Shown piece by piece: positions 1 through 17,798 of a DNA stretch of 22,154 nt. Under the pieces are notes generated by a model that was not told the DNA's origin, searched no databases, and saw nothing but the letters and a program-made list of their open reading frames with translations. The stretch covers positions 1 through 22,154 of the IMG/VR virus record IMGVR_UViG_3300037502_004040; one strand, written 5' to 3'. Source of the DNA: a virus. The translations under genes were made by a program, and so were the position numbers. How positions within the stretch are numbered: position 1 is the stretch's first letter; the number at the start of each line of letters is the position of its first letter.

Positions 1-127
1 GGAACCTTTTTTGAACACCCCACTTTGTGTTTTCTGAGATGGACCGTGACTCTTCCTGGGCCATGGATGAAAGGATAGTTAGGAACAGCTCACTTTTGCT
101 ATCAAGTGTATCGAGGTTCTCTTTTTC
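1..127 (-). pseudogene. Truncated large serine recombinase (fragment of catalytic domain)
   Basis: Conceptual translation of the minus strand from 127 down to the window edge gives an uninterrupted recombinase segment: EKENLDTLDSKSELFLTI, then SSMAQEESRSISENTKWGVQ. This is the second half of a resolvase-type catalytic domain and closely parallels residues of the 555-residue recombinase at 6170-7837 (DSKSEVLLTIISSIAEEESR, then VSWGVQKRF). The frame is open to the edge, so the C-terminal part probably continues outside the window. Above 127 the homology stops abruptly: the frame meets a stop within three codons, and no catalytic-serine (RVS) or SRFARN segment lies upstream. The N-terminal third is therefore missing here. 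It is either a decayed gene or the target gene split by prophage integration; the sequence alone cannot decide. Confidence 0.85.
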
Positions 128-208
128 GCCTCGAATCTAAAAGGATAAAAAGGAAACCCAATACACAGAAGAATGTCAATAAAAAGGTGATTTTGGACAA
201 AAAAAAGA

Positions 209-2389: not shown

Positions 2390-5300
2390 CTACTTTTTTA
2401 CTGAATAATATTTTTGCATTCTATGAATAGGCTGGTCTGGAATTGTTCTTTTTATTTTTCCCTGATCTATTAGAGGATTAAGGATAAAATTTCTAAAAGC
2501 ATTCTTAGAAGAATATTTCCCTAAAAAATCAATCATCTCAGTCATCTTTTTTGGCTCTTCACAATATTTTAGTAAAGCCTTCACCTCAGGTCCTTTTAAA
2601 AACTCTTTCTTTTCTAATTGATATTTTGCTTTTTTCCTTCTTTTCTCCTGTTCTTGAAAGGCTCTGTAGTTTATTGGCGATCTCCACTCAAAACCGGAAT
2701 TGAACCGATAAACAATTTGACCATCTTCTATAATAGTGCCTCTTTCAATGAAGCGCTCAAATAGTTCAGGTTGAAACTCCGGTGCATTTAGGTAATAGCC
2801 AAGATCGTCTCTTCCTACATCTAGATAGATTGACAGAACCTTTCTAAGGGTTTTTATCTCCTCCTCTATCTCGGCTTGCTGTTCTTCTCGGGCCATAAAA
2901 TCAACAATTTGCTCTCTTATCTTCATAATCTCTTCTGTCAAATGATCCACCAGTTTTGCATCTTTTCCTTTTCTGCCCAGCTCATCTTCAACCGCTTTAT
3001 AAAGCTTCTGGTTTAAATCATCTTTGTCTTTTTCTAATATATCTCTTTGCATTTCTTCCTCTGGCTTTATTCGCAAGTCTTCAATGAAGGCATCAATGTA
3101 CATGTTAAATGCAGGGTTGAATTTTATGTCCATCATTAGCTGAGAGAAGTTTTCTTCAACATACTCCTGGTTAAGGTGCATGGAATCACATTGGCCTTTC
3201 GATGATTGATTGCAGCACCACCACCTCACCTCATAATTTTTCTTCTGTCTGTTGATGGCTCTACTATATCCCACTAGACTTCCACATTTACCGCAATAGA
3301 ATTTTTTTGAAAAAGATTCATTCTTGCCGTGGTCATCTGGATATTTTTGATGGCTCTTTTTCCGTTCCTTTTCATTTGTTTCAGTCAATTTTTGAACCCT
3401 TTCCCACTGCTCTTCTTCAATAATTGGTTTATGGTGATTCTCAATGAAATACATAGGCAGTTCTCCAGAGTTTTTTACACGTTCGTTTACCAAAGTAAGA
3501 CCTGAATGAAACCTCTGATAGATGTAATTTCCTCGGTAAATTTCAGAGCGCAGTATCCTTCCAATGGTGGTGTCAGACCACGCTCTTTGTCCACCAGGAG
3601 TAGGAACCCCTTCAGATATTAGTAAATTTCTTATAGCCCTAATTGTCGTTCCTTTTTCATACTCATCATAAATCCGCTTCACAATTTTTGCTTCTTCATC
3701 GTTTATTACCCATTCTTTATTTTTATTGTATTCATAGCCGTAACCTTGGACTGCAGGCCTTACAATTCCTCTTTGGGCTAAGCTTCTTCTGCCCCAAGCA
3801 ATGGCTTCACCGATATTGACACTTTCTTCCTGCCCAAGTGCGGATAACAGATTAATCAGGACATTACTTTTACTGTCAGATGCTCTTAAATTTTCACGTT
3901 CGAACCATACATCTACGGGCGGGTCCAAGCTTTTTAGCATGTTCAAATAGGTTAATGTATCTACAGTATTTCTAGCAAATCTAGAAATTGATTTTGTAAT
4001 AATAAGGTCTATTTTTTGAGCTTTACAGTCTTCTATCATTCTTTTAAACTCCACTCTGTTCTCAGTGGATCTTCCACTTTTCCCATCATCTATATAGATA
4101 TCAGCTAAGATGTAGCGTGGGTCCTTGAGGATTAGGTACAGATAATATGAATATTGAGTTTTGATGCTTGTTTTTTGCTGCTCCAGTTCTGTAGAAACAC
4201 GAACGTAGGCAGCCACTTTTAACTTCTTTTCTCTAATAACAGGAACATTCGTCCACATCACCACAGAATTACTCAATTGTTTTTGAATATTTTTAACCAT
4301 TAAGTTCGGCTCAAGTTTTCTTTCTGCTATCATATTTGCGTCCTCCTCATCTACATAATTTAGATCACCCCCTTTCTCCAAGGTGGTTTGATTGTTTTGC
4401 ACAATTTCAAATTCAGGTTCTATGTCGACCACAAAATCCCCTTTAGGATACACTTCTGAAGAGGACTCTTTTATGTTAGGTTTTATGGGTTTACAGATTC
4501 CAACTTCAGTTTCTTTACCATCAATCCAGTAAACTTTATAATCATCTTTGGAGTAGATATCCATGGAAAGAATCCAAGCTCTCATGTATTCAATTGTTGC
4601 TTTTTCTGAGAATTCTTCAAATGTTTTAATATTCTCAAGCCAGTTTATGGAGTCCAGGCGATACTTCCTATCATCTTCGATTTCTACAAGCCGATTCTCA
4701 AATTTCGCATAATCCCTTTCCATCTGATTAATATCTTCATCTGTAAATTGAATATCTCTCAACCTTTTAGCCAATTGAATCTGCGTCAAGGCTTTAAGTC
4801 GATGGAACTCAAAGTAGTCATTCTGGTTTATTCTAATCAACATTCTTTGTAGCATTTTAATAAGCTTTGGATCTTCAATATCAAACTTTACTCTAAAGGC
4901 TTTAAGCATCATTTGAACCATTAGGTCTTCCCTTATAGTTGGTAAGCTGCAGAGGCTTTTGCTGGTTATGGCAGAGACACACTTAAAATAATTCCATGGA
5001 TTAATTCTATTCCTTGTAACACTTTGACCGCAATTGCCACATTGAATACGCTTTGACAACGGATGAGGCATTGATGATTGAGGTTTGGATTCTTTTTTAT
5101 TCTTGTTTCTGCCTTCCTGAACCCGATCAAAGACTTCCTGGCTGATAATCGCTGGATGGTGATTCTCTATAAAATATTGATCCCGTATCCCTTCTGATGA
5201 CCTTCTTTTATTGCTCATCAGGTCTCTTGTGATTTTTCTGGTCTTTGCATTTCCTGTATAAGCAATGTTTGATAAGATTGAAGCTATCGTCTTCGGCCCC

Positions 5301-6037
5301 CACAGCTCCTTCCCGAAGTAGGTCTTAATCCCTCTCTTGGTTAGTTCACCTGCGATAGCGTTATTACTCATACCGTCAAGATGCATTTGATAAATCTGTC
5401 TAACAACGTGGGCCTGCTCTTCGTTGATTGTAATAACTGTCTCATTACCAACTTTTGTTTTATCATAGCCGTATGTGTGCCCGATGCTAACCTTACCTTT
5501 CATCATTCTTTTTTCATGCCCCCACTCTATAGCCTGAGAAGTAGCCTCAAGCTCTCCTTGGGCAATGCTGGCATAGGTTTTTAGAAGGTAGGTTGTATCA
5601 CTTCTGGTGCTTTCAATATTTTCCGTTTCAAAATACACTGTGATATTTAATTCTTTAAGCCGCTCAATGACTTCAATGAGTTCTTGAGTGTTTCTTGAAA
5701 ATCGAGATACATTTTTTACAAGAATTAAATCAATTTTGTTTTCTTCACAATGTCTTAACATACGGGTGAATCCTCTTCTTAATGAAGCTTTTCTTCCTGT
5801 TACTAGATCATCAAAATAAATACCAACAAAGGTCCAATTGTCCCTGCTATTTATCACATGGGTGTAGTGGCTTACTTGACTTTCCAATGAATGGGACATT
5901 CCCCGTGAATCAAGACTCACCCTACAATAGGCTGCTACTTTGATTCCTTCACGTTTACTATAAAGTGGACTATCATCTATCTTTTTTAGAGGATCCCATA
6001 ACGTATTGATCCACAAGCTTTTATCTATTTGGTCCAT
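2390..6037 (-). CDS. Double large serine recombinase (two complete recombinases fused in frame) with winged-helix C-terminus
   Basis: At 1215 residues this is about twice the normal length of a large serine recombinase. Module 1 (residues about 32-545) has a resolvase domain (KVAAYCRVS with nucleophile S41; NVSRFSRN), a recombinase domain (about 190-300), a zinc ribbon (CGNCG ... C ... C, about 330-365) and a coiled coil. A linker with no recombinase motif leads to M569. Module 2 repeats the plan: KVAAYVRVS with S615, KSISRFARN, QEES, a zinc ribbon (CGKCG ... CC ... C) and a coiled coil. The last about 73 residues (PEVKALLKYC ... NPLIDQGKIKRTIPDQP ... QKYY) resemble the winged helix found at the end of RecG-like and Fic-associated proteins, which is unusual on a recombinase. 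All visible catalytic residues are intact in both modules. The protein would cut and rejoin DNA at attachment sites. RBS AAAGGAG lies 7 nt before the ATG. Module 1 is most like the 539-residue protein and module 2 most like the 555-residue protein. Confidence 0.93.
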   Translation of the reverse strand: MDQIDKSLWINTLWDPLKKIDDSPLYSKREGIKVAAYCRVSLDSRGMSHSLESQVSHYTHVINSRDNWTFVGIYFDDLVTGRKASLRRGFTRMLRHCEENKIDLILVKNVSRFSRNTQELIEVIERLKELNITVYFETENIESTRSDTTYLLKTYASIAQGELEATSQAIEWGHEKRMMKGKVSIGHTYGYDKTKVGNETVITINEEQAHVVRQIYQMHLDGMSNNAIAGELTKRGIKTYFGKELWGPKTIASILSNIAYTGNAKTRKITRDLMSNKRRSSEGIRDQYFIENHHPAIISQEVFDRVQEGRNKNKKESKPQSSMPHPLSKRIQCGNCGQSVTRNRINPWNYFKCVSAITSKSLCSLPTIREDLMVQMMLKAFRVKFDIEDPKLIKMLQRMLIRINQNDYFEFHRLKALTQIQLAKRLRDIQFTDEDINQMERDYAKFENRLVEIEDDRKYRLDSINWLENIKTFEEFSEKATIEYMRAWILSMDIYSKDDYKVYWIDGKETEVGICKPIKPNIKESSSEVYPKGDFVVDIEPEFEIVQNNQTTLEKGGDLNYVDEEDANMIAERKLEPNLMVKNIQKQLSNSVVMWTNVPVIREKKLKVAAYVRVSTELEQQKTSIKTQYSYYLYLILKDPRYILADIYIDDGKSGRSTENRVEFKRMIEDCKAQKIDLIITKSISRFARNTVDTLTYLNMLKSLDPPVDVWFERENLRASDSKSNVLINLLSALGQEESVNIGEAIAWGRRSLAQRGIVRPAVQGYGYEYNKNKEWVINDEEAKIVKRIYDEYEKGTTIRAIRNLLISEGVPTPGGQRAWSDTTIGRILRSEIYRGNYIYQRFHSGLTLVNERVKNSGELPMYFIENHHKPIIEEEQWERVQKLTETNEKERKKSHQKYPDDHGKNESFSKKFYCGKCGSLVGYSRAINRQKKNYEVRWWCCNQSSKGQCDSMHLNQEYVEENFSQLMMDIKFNPAFNMYIDAFIEDLRIKPEEEMQRDILEKDKDDLNQKLYKAVEDELGRKGKDAKLVDHLTEEIMKIREQIVDFMAREEQQAEIEEEIKTLRKVLSIYLDVGRDDLGYYLNAPEFQPELFERFIERGTIIEDGQIVYRFNSGFEWRSPINYRAFQEQEKRRKKAKYQLEKKEFLKGPEVKALLKYCEEPKKMTEMIDFLGKYSSKNAFRNFILNPLIDQGKIKRTIPDQPIHRMQKYYSVKK
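4333..4347 (-). promoter_or_regulatory. Internal ribosome binding site for recombinase module 2
   Basis: Within the fused gene, a perfect AGGAGG (4347-4342) stands 8 nt before an in-frame ATG (codon 569, 4333). Translation from it would give a free 647-residue module 2 protein. It looks like the start of a formerly separate gene. Confidence 0.7.
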
Positions 6038-6169: not shown

Positions 6170-7837
6170 CTACTCGTTCTTCCCACGTCTCCATCCGTGA
6201 GCTATTCTTTTAACTCCACATTTAAAAATAAATTCAATCTCATAACCTTTATGGAGAATGCCTCTTTCAACAAGCTTTTTAAATTCAGTGGCATCAAAAG
6301 TTTCAAAGCTACTTTGGTTTTCAAGATATGTTATTAAGGCTTCTAAATTCTGCCTCATATAGATTTCCTCGTCCTGGCTTTTGACAAGTGCTTCATGTTC
6401 CTGCTGGTAGATTTGTGATTCATAAATCATATTTCTAAGAGTTGCATCATAGATTGGGTCATTGGTAATACTTTCTCTCATGGCCATTTCACTTATTCGG
6501 TCGTTAATTCTATCGATAATTTCTTCAAGTTCTTTGAGCCTTTCTTTTTCATCATATGTTAAACTTACATCCTCAATGGCTTCCTCACCCTCAGCTTTTA
6601 TAATGTCAATTTCCTCCGTCATTTTTAGAAGCATTTTGTTATATGCTGCTTCTATAACCTCTTCCCAAACATACTTTGAACGGCAGTCAAAGTCAGCTTC
6701 TACTTTTTGGGCCGCCAGTCTGCAGTGCCAAACGGTGAACTTGTAGGGCTTACCATCTTTCTTTGATGTAATTCGCCTTCTATGAACCGGCATTCCACAC
6801 TCCCCGCAGTAAAGCATATTTGAAAATGGTGCCTTTCCACTATAGGTTCTATGGTATTTCCCATCGGGATCGTGCTTCATTTTACCTCTTCTATCCAGTT
6901 CCTTTTGTACATAATTCCAATCTTCTTCAGAAATAATCGCAGGATGATTGTTCCGTATAAAGTACTGCGGTTTATGGTTTTTATTTCTTACTCGCTTATG
7001 GGTTAAAGGGTCCAGGGTCACTGACTTCTGACAAAGTGCATGACCACAGAATTTTTCATTTCGAAGTATTTTCAAAACGGAATCACTGGTCCATTTGGTA
7101 TTATCCCTTGCAGTTTTTACTTTGTCTTTTGTTAGACCCTTTGCTATTTGCACCGACCCTTTTCCAGAGATAAACTCTTGAAAGATTCGCCTTACGGTTT
7201 TTGCTTCTTCTTCATTTATAATAAGATTTCCTTCTTCGTCCTCGTCATAGCCTAAGAAGTAGGTTGTTGGAATATGAGGTATTCCTTGAGAAAACCTCTT
7301 TTGAACACCCCAGCTAACATTAGCACTTATTGTACGGGACTCTTCCTCAGCTATGCTAGATATTATTGTGAGTAGGACTTCAGATTTTGAGTCAAGGCTG
7401 TCGATGCCTTCACGATCGAAAATCACCCCGACCCTCTTATCCAGACTTTTAAGCATCCTCACATAGGTTAAACAATCCAGGGTATTTCTTGCAAATCGGC
7501 TGATGGATTTTGTGATGATGTAATCAAATTTTCCTTCCTTGGCATCTTGTATCATTTGATTGAATCCAGTTCTGTATTTCGTATTGGTTCCAGTAACACC
7601 TTCATCGCTGTAGACCTTATAAAGCTCCCAGCCTTCTCGTTTCTCAATGTATTCTTTAAAGTAAGAAACCTGTAGCTTGTAACTGGACTGTTGTTCTTCT
7701 TCATGGGTAGATACCCTGGCATAGGCTGCTACTTTGATTTTTCGCTCTTCATTTCTTCTATAATCAGGGTTATTCATATTTGCAGGGATTACCCTAACCC
7801 GAGGATTCATCGTCGATATGTTTCTACTTCCTTCCAT
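6170..7837 (-). CDS. Large serine recombinase (555 aa)
   Basis: This is a site-specific DNA recombinase of the large serine family. The resolvase catalytic domain (residues about 35-185) has AAYARVS with S43 as nucleophile, the YSDEGVTGT loop, and the SRFARN and EEESR motifs. The recombinase domain (about 195-300) ends in HPAII. A zinc ribbon CGECG ... HC ... C (about 345-395) and a long coiled coil (about 420-510) follow. Length is normal for the family. Its ATG overlaps the last 14 nt of the preceding recombinase gene and uses an RBS (AGGGGAGG) inside it, so the two are translationally coupled. A 132-nt gap separates it from the fused recombinase downstream. Closest in the window to module 2 of the fusion and to the left-edge fragment (shared RNT.D.LTY..MLKSLD and DSKSE segments). 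Confidence 0.95.
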   Translation of the reverse strand: MEGSRNISTMNPRVRVIPANMNNPDYRRNEERKIKVAAYARVSTHEEEQQSSYKLQVSYFKEYIEKREGWELYKVYSDEGVTGTNTKYRTGFNQMIQDAKEGKFDYIITKSISRFARNTLDCLTYVRMLKSLDKRVGVIFDREGIDSLDSKSEVLLTIISSIAEEESRTISANVSWGVQKRFSQGIPHIPTTYFLGYDEDEEGNLIINEEEAKTVRRIFQEFISGKGSVQIAKGLTKDKVKTARDNTKWTSDSVLKILRNEKFCGHALCQKSVTLDPLTHKRVRNKNHKPQYFIRNNHPAIISEEDWNYVQKELDRRGKMKHDPDGKYHRTYSGKAPFSNMLYCGECGMPVHRRRITSKKDGKPYKFTVWHCRLAAQKVEADFDCRSKYVWEEVIEAAYNKMLLKMTEEIDIIKAEGEEAIEDVSLTYDEKERLKELEEIIDRINDRISEMAMRESITNDPIYDATLRNMIYESQIYQQEHEALVKSQDEEIYMRQNLEALITYLENQSSFETFDATEFKKLVERGILHKGYEIEFIFKCGVKRIAHGWRRGKNE

Positions 7838-9443
7838 CCTGATAACCTCCCCTAAACCTTCCGACTACCGTCTCCTTCCCGTCAATCCATTTGATGGTAA
7901 ATAAAAAAGGTGACTCCACTTTGATGTGAATCACCCACGCTCTCATAAAAGAGATGTCTAGTATTTGATTAATTGCTTTATCGGAACCTTTTAATTCTTT
8001 TAATCGGTTTAGAGAGGATTCCCTAAATTCATAGTCCTTATCGAAGTCTTCCCATAACTTAGCTTTTTTTGCGATTTCTTTTTCAATTTCTTGTCGCTTT
8101 TCTTTTAACGCCTCAGTATCAAGATTTTGAAGAATAGCCTTATTTTCTGCTATCAAGCACTTTTCAAGTTCAACTCGCAGTAGGTTTTGCTCTCGTTCCC
8201 TTACAGCTTCAGCACTGGATAATTCTTTCGTCAGCTGCTTAATCAATAATCCATCGTTGGTTCTTTGATTGATGCTGTAGCGCTTTTCAAAACCTTCCTT
8301 TAGCAGCTTTTCAATTTCATTTTCCTCAATAGGGTCTGCTTCACAAAGTAGCTCGCTTTTTTTATTGGATGAACATCGCCACATTGTTTTCTCTAGGTTT
8401 TTACCGAAGCGATGAAAGTTCTTTCCGCAATGAGTACATATTACTCTGCTAGTAAATGGTGTTTTTTCATACTCACTCCTGTTAAATTCAGATTTATTAA
8501 CCCTTAGTATTTCTTGAACCTTTTCATAGTCTTCTTTTGAAACGATGCCTTCATGATGGCCTTCTATATAATACTGAGGTTTATGACCTTTATTGATAAC
8601 TGTCTTATGGGTTCTAAAATCCAGTGTACAGGTCTTTCTGCTAAGGGCATCACCAGCATATCTTTCATTAGTCAACATGCTTCTGATGTTATTGTTATCC
8701 CAGTCAATCTCACCCGAACGCTTCTTATATCCTCTTCTAATAAAATGTCTGGCGATCTCTGTCATGTTATACCCATTAAGAAAAAGGTCATAAGCTTCTC
8801 TTACAATCTGAGCTTCTTTTTCAATAATGGTCCATTCTTTATCCTTGTTGACCTCATATCCAAAGAGCTGCCCCGCAACAACTTCACCCCTCTCGAATCG
8901 CTTTGTATAGGCCCAATCAATATTCTCCGATGTAGCTCGGCTTTCTTCTTCAGCGAAAGTTGCAAGGATTTTTATTAGCAGTGAACTGGTCATGTCTTTG
9001 GTGTTCAATCTCTCCTTTTCGAAGATTACGTGAACACCCTTTTCTGTAAGCTGTCTCACAATATCCATTGTGTCCACAACATTCCGCGCAAATCTAGATA
9101 TGGATTTGCAGATAATCAGGTCAATCTCTCCATTCAGAGCATTTCTAATCATCCGATTAAAACCAATTCGTTTGGTCATATCTGTTCCAGACTTACCTTT
9201 ATCGGAATAAACTCCTGCGTAAATCCATTCAGGATTAGATCTGATATAGTTGGTGTAATGAATGATTTGATTTTCAAGGGAGCCTAATCGAATCTCTTCT
9301 TCACTGCTGACCCTACAGTAACAGGCCACTTTGGGTTTAACTGCTTCTCTTTGAGGTCTAAAATCATTTAATCCTAGTCCTGCATTTATTACTGATACCG
9401 CTGAGTTTTGCAGAGGTATCTCTCTAACTCTTTGCTGATTCAT
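7824..9443 (-). CDS. Large serine recombinase (539 aa), first gene of the operon
   Basis: The resolvase domain (residues about 37-190) carries ACYCRVS with S46 as nucleophile, KSISRFARN and EEES. A recombinase domain, a zinc ribbon (CTHCG ... C ... C, about 355-390), a coiled coil (about 400-480) and the terminal WIDGKE segment follow. The same WIDGKE segment closes module 1 of the fused protein, so the two are close relatives. The start is well supported: AAGGAGG lies 8 nt before the ATG. The 3' end encodes both its own C-terminus and the RBS of the next recombinase. It may form a pair or heteromeric set with its neighbours, as CcrA/CcrB do in SCC elements, but that is inference. Confidence 0.95.
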   Translation of the reverse strand: MNQQRVREIPLQNSAVSVINAGLGLNDFRPQREAVKPKVACYCRVSSEEEIRLGSLENQIIHYTNYIRSNPEWIYAGVYSDKGKSGTDMTKRIGFNRMIRNALNGEIDLIICKSISRFARNVVDTMDIVRQLTEKGVHVIFEKERLNTKDMTSSLLIKILATFAEEESRATSENIDWAYTKRFERGEVVAGQLFGYEVNKDKEWTIIEKEAQIVREAYDLFLNGYNMTEIARHFIRRGYKKRSGEIDWDNNNIRSMLTNERYAGDALSRKTCTLDFRTHKTVINKGHKPQYYIEGHHEGIVSKEDYEKVQEILRVNKSEFNRSEYEKTPFTSRVICTHCGKNFHRFGKNLEKTMWRCSSNKKSELLCEADPIEENEIEKLLKEGFEKRYSINQRTNDGLLIKQLTKELSSAEAVREREQNLLRVELEKCLIAENKAILQNLDTEALKEKRQEIEKEIAKKAKLWEDFDKDYEFRESSLNRLKELKGSDKAINQILDISFMRAWVIHIKVESPFLFTIKWIDGKETVVGRFRGGYQDGRK

Positions 9444-9484
9444 TCTTTTTTCCTCCTTCCCTTTTTATCCCTTAACTCGTGTCA

Positions 9485-9609
9485 TATCCATCAAGTCATT
9501 TAGTGCAAAGGATAAAAATAATAATCCTCAAAACCTTGTTGTTTCAAAGGTTTCAAGTTTTGTGCGTATTACATATATCACTCAGAAGCGAGTATTTATC
9601 AAGTCATTT
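9485..9609. repeat. Direct repeats flanking an inverted repeat upstream of the recombinase operon
   Basis: Two 17-bp copies of TAT(CC/TT)ATCAAGTCATTT lie at 9485-9501 and 9593-9609 (15 of 17 identical, 108 bp apart). Almost midway between them is a perfect inverted repeat AAACCTT-N9-AAGGTTT (9531-9553), which extends imperfectly on both sides. The arrangement covers the leader of the recombinase operon. It could be a recombinase-binding (attachment-like) site or an operator. A weak promoter with TTGAAA and TTATTA 17 nt apart overlaps the inverted repeat. Confidence 0.6.
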
Positions 9610-17199: not shown

Positions 17200-17520
17200 T
17201 TAAAGTAAACTTTGATATTTTTGTCTCCCGTATAAAATCCTCATGATGTTTACCTGTTCTTTTTCTTCGTCAATGAGATAAAACACGATGTAGTTACCTA
17301 TAATAAGCTTTCGGTATCCTTTCTGTTTCAAAAATTCATCCTCTACATAGTTACAAGAAAAAGGATAATCTTTAAGCCTCATGACACTCTGTTCGATCTT
17401 CTCCAAAAGATTAACTGCTGCCCCTTCAGCATGTAATTCTTTTGATATATAGCGGTAAATTTCTTCTAAGTCCTCACTAGCAATAGGTGTAAACTTAATC
17501 CGATAGTTTCTACTTTCCAT
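17200..17520 (-). CDS. RelE/ParE-family toxin
   Basis: The 106-residue protein has the compact RelE/ParE pattern: YRIKFTPIASEDLEEIYRYI at the N-terminus, a central helix (LLEKIEQSVMRLKDYP), then YRKLIIGNYIVFYLIDEE and IMRILYGRQKY at the C-terminus. RelE members cut mRNA in the ribosome and ParE members poison gyrase; the sequence alone does not settle which. It overlaps the antitoxin gene by 11 nt (ATG inside the antitoxin's last codons), so the two are coupled. It lies between tail chaperone and tape measure genes, which is not a structural position; it is therefore an inserted cargo pair. Confidence 0.9.
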   Translation of the reverse strand: MESRNYRIKFTPIASEDLEEIYRYISKELHAEGAAVNLLEKIEQSVMRLKDYPFSCNYVEDEFLKQKGYRKLIIGNYIVFYLIDEEKEQVNIMRILYGRQKYQSLL

Positions 17521-17773
17521 ACTTACCTTTTAATCTTTCAAATACATTTTCTGCATCTTCTAGGGGCGCTCCATTTTTAAGTTGCTCTTCTGCTTTGGCT
17601 AGCTTCTCATAAAGTTCAGCTTTTGCTAATTTCTTTTCATAGGTTTCCATGCTCATCACAACCATATCACCATAGCCATTTTTTGTGATAAAGATAGGCT
17701 CTTCATTCTCATGGCATAGCTTTGAAATCTCCGTCGTATTTCGTAAGTCTTTTATAGGTCTAATCTCAGGCAT
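17510..17773 (-). CDS. Phd/YefM-type antitoxin
   Basis: The 87-residue protein starts with the DNA-binding fold typical of the family (MPEIRPIKDLRNTTEISKLC ... PIFITKNGYGDMVVMSMETY). A helical C-terminal tail (KLAKAELYEKLAKAEEQL ... ENVFERLKGKYGK) probably wraps the toxin. The ATG at 17773 has AAGGAG 8 nt upstream; an in-frame GTG at 17791 precedes the ribosome site and is rejected. It precedes the toxin gene, the usual antitoxin-first order, and probably represses its own promoter through the repeats at 17799-17827. Confidence 0.9.
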   Translation of the reverse strand: MPEIRPIKDLRNTTEISKLCHENEEPIFITKNGYGDMVVMSMETYEKKLAKAELYEKLAKAEEQLKNGAPLEDAENVFERLKGKYGK

Positions 17774-17798
17774 AATAATCGCTCCTTCCACATAAAAT

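Follow-up and report, generated by a model that had tools for sequence, protein, structure and literature searches.

The locus described in this study raises the question of how a single phage gene comes to encode two complete large serine recombinases (LSRs) in one chain, and what role such a protein might have. Serine integrases are generally thought to be tetramers of identical single-module subunits. The DNA analyzed here, hereafter the window, is a stretch of 22,154 nucleotides (IMG/VR record IMGVR_UViG_3300037502_004040) whose minus strand carries, in order, capsid, tail, holin and amidase genes, the LSR genes A, B and C and two cargo genes. This gene content, together with the isolates that harbor relatives, points to a fragment of a tailed prophage of Clostridia. 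The features on which the following analysis is based are collected in Table 1.

Table 1. Features of the window around the fused recombinase gene C (m1 and m2, modules 1 and 2 of C).
Feature	Position	Strand	Details
Gene A, LSR	7824..9443	-	539 aa; 14-bp out-of-frame overlap with B; ORF list, Pfam, tree
Gene B, LSR	6170..7837	-	555 aa; ORF list, Pfam, tree
Gene C, fused double LSR	2390..6037	-	1215 aa, ATG start, without internal stop; 47 stop-free fused homologues
m1, residues 1-513	4499..6037	-	Resolvase N-terminal domain with S41, recombinase domain, zinc ribbon and coiled coil; sister of gene A
Linker, residues 514-604	4226..4498	-	Predicted disordered; variable sequence, stop-free throughout
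Internal Shine-Dalgarno GAGGAGGA (4348-4341) and in-frame ATG (4333-4331, residue 569)	4331..4348	-	Predicted separate start of m2
m2, residues 605-1130	2648..4225	-	Resolvase N-terminal domain with S615, recombinase domain, zinc ribbon and coiled coil; sister of gene B
C-terminal tail of gene C, winged-helix-like Fic-like_C (PF21247)	2390..2647	-	Residues 1151-1210, 30.1 bits, cut-off 27
Cargo between C and phage end	575..2105	-	166-aa protein without family match; 351-aa MqsA-type HTH and Panacea (PanA-like) antitoxin; profile matches
Conserved right end of prophage (P arm), 51 bp, TTGACATTCTTCTGTGTATTGGGTTTCCTTTTTATCCTTTTAGATTCGAGG	129..179	-	Identical in G014, 98% in G012/G013; beside further targets too
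Target start, B-type LSR gene without N-terminus	1..128	-	From FE|KE codons (EKENLDTLDSKSELFLTILSSMAQEESRS...); left edge of window

The Pfam scan of gene C returned two copies each of the Resolvase (PF00239), Recombinase (PF07508) and Zn_ribbon_recom (PF13408) domains. The catalytic serines (S41 in AAYCRVS and S615 in AAYVRVS), the arginine segments (SRFSRN at 111-116 and SRFARN at 685-690) and the zinc-ribbon cysteines (C333/C336/C353/C363 and C915/C918/C942/C950) were conserved among homologues, and the key residues of both modules were invariant or near-invariant in alignments of 6 and 14 sequences. The AlphaFold model displayed two LSR-like folds with a long helical hairpin in each, separated by a disordered stretch at residues 520-603 (block pLDDT of about 22-34); the overall pTM of 0.33 renders the placement of the modules relative to each other uninformative. 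Each module thus possesses a resolvase N-terminal domain with catalytic serine and arginines, as well as a recombinase domain and a zinc ribbon with coiled coil (from Pfam and from the hairpins of the model), whereas an LSR is defined by a single module of about 450-650 aa per chain and C has two modules in 1215 aa. The DUF4368 domain of the multi-targeting LSR class (PMC10083194) had no match in C in the Pfam scan. The claim of the initial annotation that two complete serine recombinases occupy one 1215-residue chain is therefore borne out by the open reading frame, the Pfam domains and the conserved catalytic residues. The winged-helix-like tail and the internal start before m2 go beyond that annotation, as do the mosaic nature of C and the cut recombinase gene beside the element, both described below.

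A search for homologues with both modules in one chain, proposed in the initial annotation, retrieved 47 stop-free fused sequences that formed 15 clusters at <65% identity. The fused gene was present at full length in independent metagenomes, in isolate assemblies (IMG isolate contigs included), among them Anaerotalea alkaliphila F-3ap, and in one complete phage record, the gut phage PV036459. The idea that a sequencing or assembly indel made the fusion, for which nothing was found, has practically no probability left, since it is ruled out by these dozens of independent homologues. Moreover, the linkers of 19 sequences contained no in-frame stop, compared with 205 and 218 stops in the other two frames; at cluster level (12 clusters), the counts were 0 versus 114 and 145. 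The linker varied from 81 to 121 aa in length and, between types, shared only 9-21% identity with that of the window, so that the linker stays open although its sequence is free to change. Because the A/B overlap is out of frame, the in-frame join of m1 and m2 is not explained by tight gene packing. The fusion is genuine, old and long-conserved. Close relatives were present in only 2 of about 780 Clostridia genomes surveyed, and the fused double integrase is a feature of a phage family from gut and environmental Clostridia. Split versions also occur in nature: L109 has four genes, A-B-m1-m2, with an ATGA overlap, G011 has a frameshift in the C linker, and the outer Anaerotalea element is probably another split version, which indicates that tethering is dispensable. 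A distant fused gene of 1118 aa was also observed in L106 (4103-7459), with modules closer to A and B than to m1 and m2; it is possibly an independent or very old fusion.

In the relatives, C was almost always part of an operon A-B-C. A maximum-likelihood tree of 63 modules, in which the two-LSR pairs of other phages were included, resolved A, B, m1 and m2 each as a single group (100%) and supported the groupings A+m1 (100/99) and B+m2 (92/96). Tandem LSR pairs from several other phages branched outside, with the first gene beside A+m1 and the second beside B+m2. This topology suggests that an ancestral pair was duplicated and that the second copy was fused, in agreement with the initial annotation, which had likened m1 to the 539-residue and m2 to the 555-residue neighbor and regarded the fusion as the same pair duplicated and joined. 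An A-B type pair without C is common among related phages.

In addition to the fused protein, the linker appears to encode a start of its own. When every in-frame start of C was scored for Shine-Dalgarno pairing, the top-scoring start of the whole gene in the window was the ATG at residue 569 (gatgaggaggacgcaaatATG). The best start in the linker just before m2 ranked first in all scored sequences except G002a (second) and G022 (fifth), with ATG, GTG or TTG as start codon in the other sequences; in L101, for example, the internal ribosome-binding site reads AAGGAGGTGA. The top start of the gene fell in the linker in nine of the 12 clusters, compared with 1.2 expected. Furthermore, the position of the internal start was conserved across types, and the frameshifted copy in G011 keeps it. 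Upon synonymous recoding of the linker, equally strong sites arose in 0.2 to 55% of cases depending on type. Taken type by type, the internal start therefore stands out in only a part of them, and the evidence lies in the combination across types. These sequence features suggest that free m2, of about 75 kDa, is probably made besides the fused protein of about 140 kDa. In the absence of a linker stop, any ribosome initiating at m1 yields the fused chain.

Gene C was also the variable part of otherwise near-identical phages. The window phage and the L018 phage (in G014) were 97-100% identical in DNA from the amidase gene through A and most of B, 92-94% identical at the B/C border and 98-100% identical in the cargo genes. 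In C, the catalytic domains shared 96% (m1) and 90% (m2) amino acid identity, whereas the DNA-binding domains shared only 73/68% (m1) and 61/62% (m2). The targets of these two phages differ, being B-like and m2-like genes, respectively, with A and B near-identical. Across ten proteins of the window type, C was 88-100% alike in the catalytic domains, and the DNA-binding domains of m1 and m2 occurred as discrete alleles combined differently. Such a mosaic C is what would be expected of a part exchanged to change specificity. When the similarity of C alleles was compared with that of the target half-sites, the true pairing tied for best of 15 pairings, with six cases only, too few to demonstrate a correlation.

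The targets were recognized from the right ends of the prophages, which lie downstream of C and the cargo and abut a gene broken at a type-specific position. Beyond the cargo, the terminal 51 bp of window-type elements are identical or closely similar (...TTTCCTTTTTATCCTTTTAGATTCGAGG), and all seven right ends of these elements, including one with a shortened phage end (G010), adjoin recombinase genes that lack the N-terminus and are cut at FE(K/R)E codons (FE|KE). These seven targets comprise A-, B-, m1- and m2-type genes. In the other C types, the breakpoint was at ILxNEKF of B (four cases), at SSxAxEES of B (G002, L077 and L048) or at SRFxRN of m1 (L101). Host genes were also used, namely ugd (G014), a SEC-C gene (L081) and a wzx-like gene (PV036459), so that, with the g014b type using such genes, recombinase targeting is not family-wide. 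The G014 locus reads as a triple nest: ugd holds an element that has, just upstream of its A gene, a second one, whose m2 in turn contains the L018 phage. Alternatively, homologous recombination between similar prophages could have left the broken recombinase genes beside phage ends as decayed relics, in which case they would not be integration sites, a view favored by the frequency of tandem related prophages (G013, G014 and G015) and by the lack of recovered left ends. Against it stand seven different genes of four types that share one breakpoint codon next to one and the same phage end, as well as two interrupted targets that are 99-100% identical to intact genes on another contig exactly from the breakpoint onward, and we consider such an origin improbable. 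Integration is thus the preferred reading, and phages of this family appear often to have inserted into the integrase genes of related phages. Within the window-type phages themselves, the targeted lysine codon was absent from their own B, m1 and m2 modules (0 of 26) and present in A (5 of 5), while lysine occupied the same position in 10 of 10 B and 9 of 10 m2 modules of other types. This loss of the codon, with few evolutionary events behind the counts, hints at avoidance of self-insertion.

The junctions seen were right ends only. Left ends (attL) were not found in G014 at 21-26 kb, at the ends of PV036459 or among N-terminal target halves in four genomes, and a candidate in G016:C48 proved to be an unrelated fragment; attP was likewise sought and not recovered. 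A model in which units of truncated B, C and cargo move alone as a shuffling cassette was rejected because the left neighbor of A is the phage lysis region and not the N-terminal half of a target. Just upstream of A (at about 9450-9540 in the window, and in relatives too), inverted TTTTTATCC arms about 39 bp apart flank a variable center. These arms resemble the phage-end arm, and the site was weighed as a candidate attP, although the prophages run through it. The inverted pair may serve as another att-like site or have a regulatory role. In nearly all relatives, a conserved GAGTGATATATGTAATACGC element lies ahead of A, and in G014 another element is seemingly inserted right beside it.

Serine integrases act as tetramers with two subunits per site, for which structural models have been presented (PMC3783163). 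In the working scheme proposed here, A, B, m1 and m2 would be four kinds of module in one integration machine, the simplest arrangement being one kind per half-site. Translation would yield free m2 alongside the fused chain; m1-m2 in tethered form would constitute an obligate heterodimer on the two half-sites of attB, and A and B would bind attP. Swapping of the DNA-binding domains of C would re-target the phage. As suggested in the initial annotation, a covalent dimer could also alter synapsis, site pairing or directionality. Window-type phages would target the stretch of serine recombinase genes that encodes the conserved FE(K/R)E motif, and so would insert into such genes in related prophages already resident. 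That C is a tethered heterodimer selecting attB together with A and B is, in our judgment, slightly favored. The fuller proposal, that covalent m1-m2 is an exchangeable attB-reading subunit, made also as free m2 from the internal start, and that several lineages have specialized on the integrase motifs of rival phages (FE|KE, SRFxRN, SSxAxEES and ILxNEKF), is more tentative, its chances falling somewhat short of even. If true, an incoming phage would cripple the excision genes of the resident prophage.

Two other explanations of C deserve consideration. The active proteins might be a separate m1-containing product and m2, with the fusion a tolerated read-through, free m2 active and tethering without function; the strong internal start of most types and the survival of the split versions (L109 with its ATGA overlap, and G011) are compatible with this. 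Such tolerance nevertheless sits poorly with a linker that keeps the frame and lacks stops in all intact fused types examined, with about ten stops in each of the other frames, and with an A/B overlap that, unlike the m1-m2 join, is out of frame; moreover, all ribosomes starting at m1 would make the fused chain. We regard this explanation as unlikely, although it retains some weight. A slightly smaller chance is given to the view that A and B are the integrase and that C serves excision, inversion or the disabling or regulation of a resident prophage, so that the diversity of C would reflect an arms race and not attB choice. The many related phages with an A-B type pair and no C would fit such a division. 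On the other hand, both modules of C appear, from their conserved residues, to be kept catalytically intact, and phages whose targets differ have nearly identical A and B genes. The attB-selecting tethered heterodimer is retained as the preferred role of C.

CcrA/CcrB of SCCmec is the classic two-LSR system, and, as there, two different LSRs are encoded together on one element here; the phage context and the fusion of modules set the present case apart. The best NCBIfam match for m1 and m2 was CcrB, at 117.7 and 133.6 bits, respectively, far below the equivalog cut-off of 900 for CcrB. Structure and sequence searches with the C modules matched the SPbeta, phiC31, Bxb1 and A118-family integrases, and the closest solved full-length relative was YokA/SprA of SPbeta (9dxh/9dxd). 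These integrases have the same domains and fold as each C module, but they differ from C in having one module per chain and one gene per element. Tandem LSR pairs without C are likewise found in the two-LSR phages (e.g., Ca. Heliusvirales NatCom_17901, Anaerosphaera phage; Streptococcus Javan630), and, the placement of Javan630 excepted, these pairs were outgroups of A+m1 and B+m2 in the tree. The complete genome of PV036459 (IMGVR 517045; human gut, Ca. Heliusvirales) has the full set, with A of 537 aa, B of 571 aa and a fused C of 1276 aa, all annotated only as hypothetical proteins; its C shares 34% identity with that of the window, and its right end falls within a wzx flippase-like host gene.

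The layout of the locus is closest in kind to the serine integrase triplets of Streptococcus ICEs, which have three tandem LSR genes and for which a target in another element (traG) is known (Ambroset et al. 2016, PMC4701971). Compared by layout, both have three LSR genes at one end in the same orientation to the target gene, the order in the window and its relatives being A-B-C, cargo, end and target. In the ICE triplets, CDSs are sometimes found between the LSR genes and the target, the triplets were derived by duplication, and genes, including traG of another ICE, serve as targets; intervening CDSs, duplication and genic targets recur here. The members of the ICE triplets are, however, single-module, whereas the third gene here encodes a fused pair, giving four modules, and the carriers are phages, several types of which insert into recombinase genes. 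In the gin element of B. cereus, which has three LSRs, GirC alone catalyzes integration in vitro (PMC5595907), a warning that not every neighboring LSR is needed. The literature searched, with most subscription journals outside its scope, yielded no report of a natural double serine recombinase. A large LSR survey restricted its high-quality candidates to proteins of 400-650 aa (PMC10083194), a filter at which the fused class would drop out. LSR tandem pairs and triplets were known already; what appears to be new is the third gene as a natural fused pair.

The region between C and the phage end carried diverse cargo. In the window, the 166-aa and 351-aa (Panacea, SocA-like) genes overlap, and the two resemble a toxin-antitoxin pair of the Panacea kind, whose toxin would be undescribed. 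Defence-like cargo at the same place in relatives included AbiD in L018 (15039-16055; 1e-56), an AbiEi/AbiEii-like pair in L016 (11011-12721, by eye) and a protein matching BnzB in L043 (9918-12893; 4e-44). Cargo proteins of L048 (853-2283) and G019:C45 (4343-5764) combine an AlbA_2-like start (by eye) with the winged-helix-like tail of C, at about 50% identity to it, which suggests that this tail is a module shared by gene C and cargo proteins. Elsewhere in the window, between the tape-measure and tail genes (17200-17791), two further proteins were recognized by eye: a 106-aa RelE/ParE-like toxin and a 93-aa type II antitoxin-like protein. In Anaerotalea G015:C15 (3543-6791), a tyrosine-recombinase-like three-gene set (by eye) lies in the opposite orientation inside the prophage head/tail genes.

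In conclusion, two open questions about serine integrases are how they distinguish different half-sites and how they change target. A system in which four modules share the job, two of them tied together, would offer a direct handle on both. It could also serve as a template for integrases whose target recognition is separable and swappable. If the targeting of rival integrases is confirmed, it would represent a form of phage-phage conflict, one that would also lock older prophages in place.
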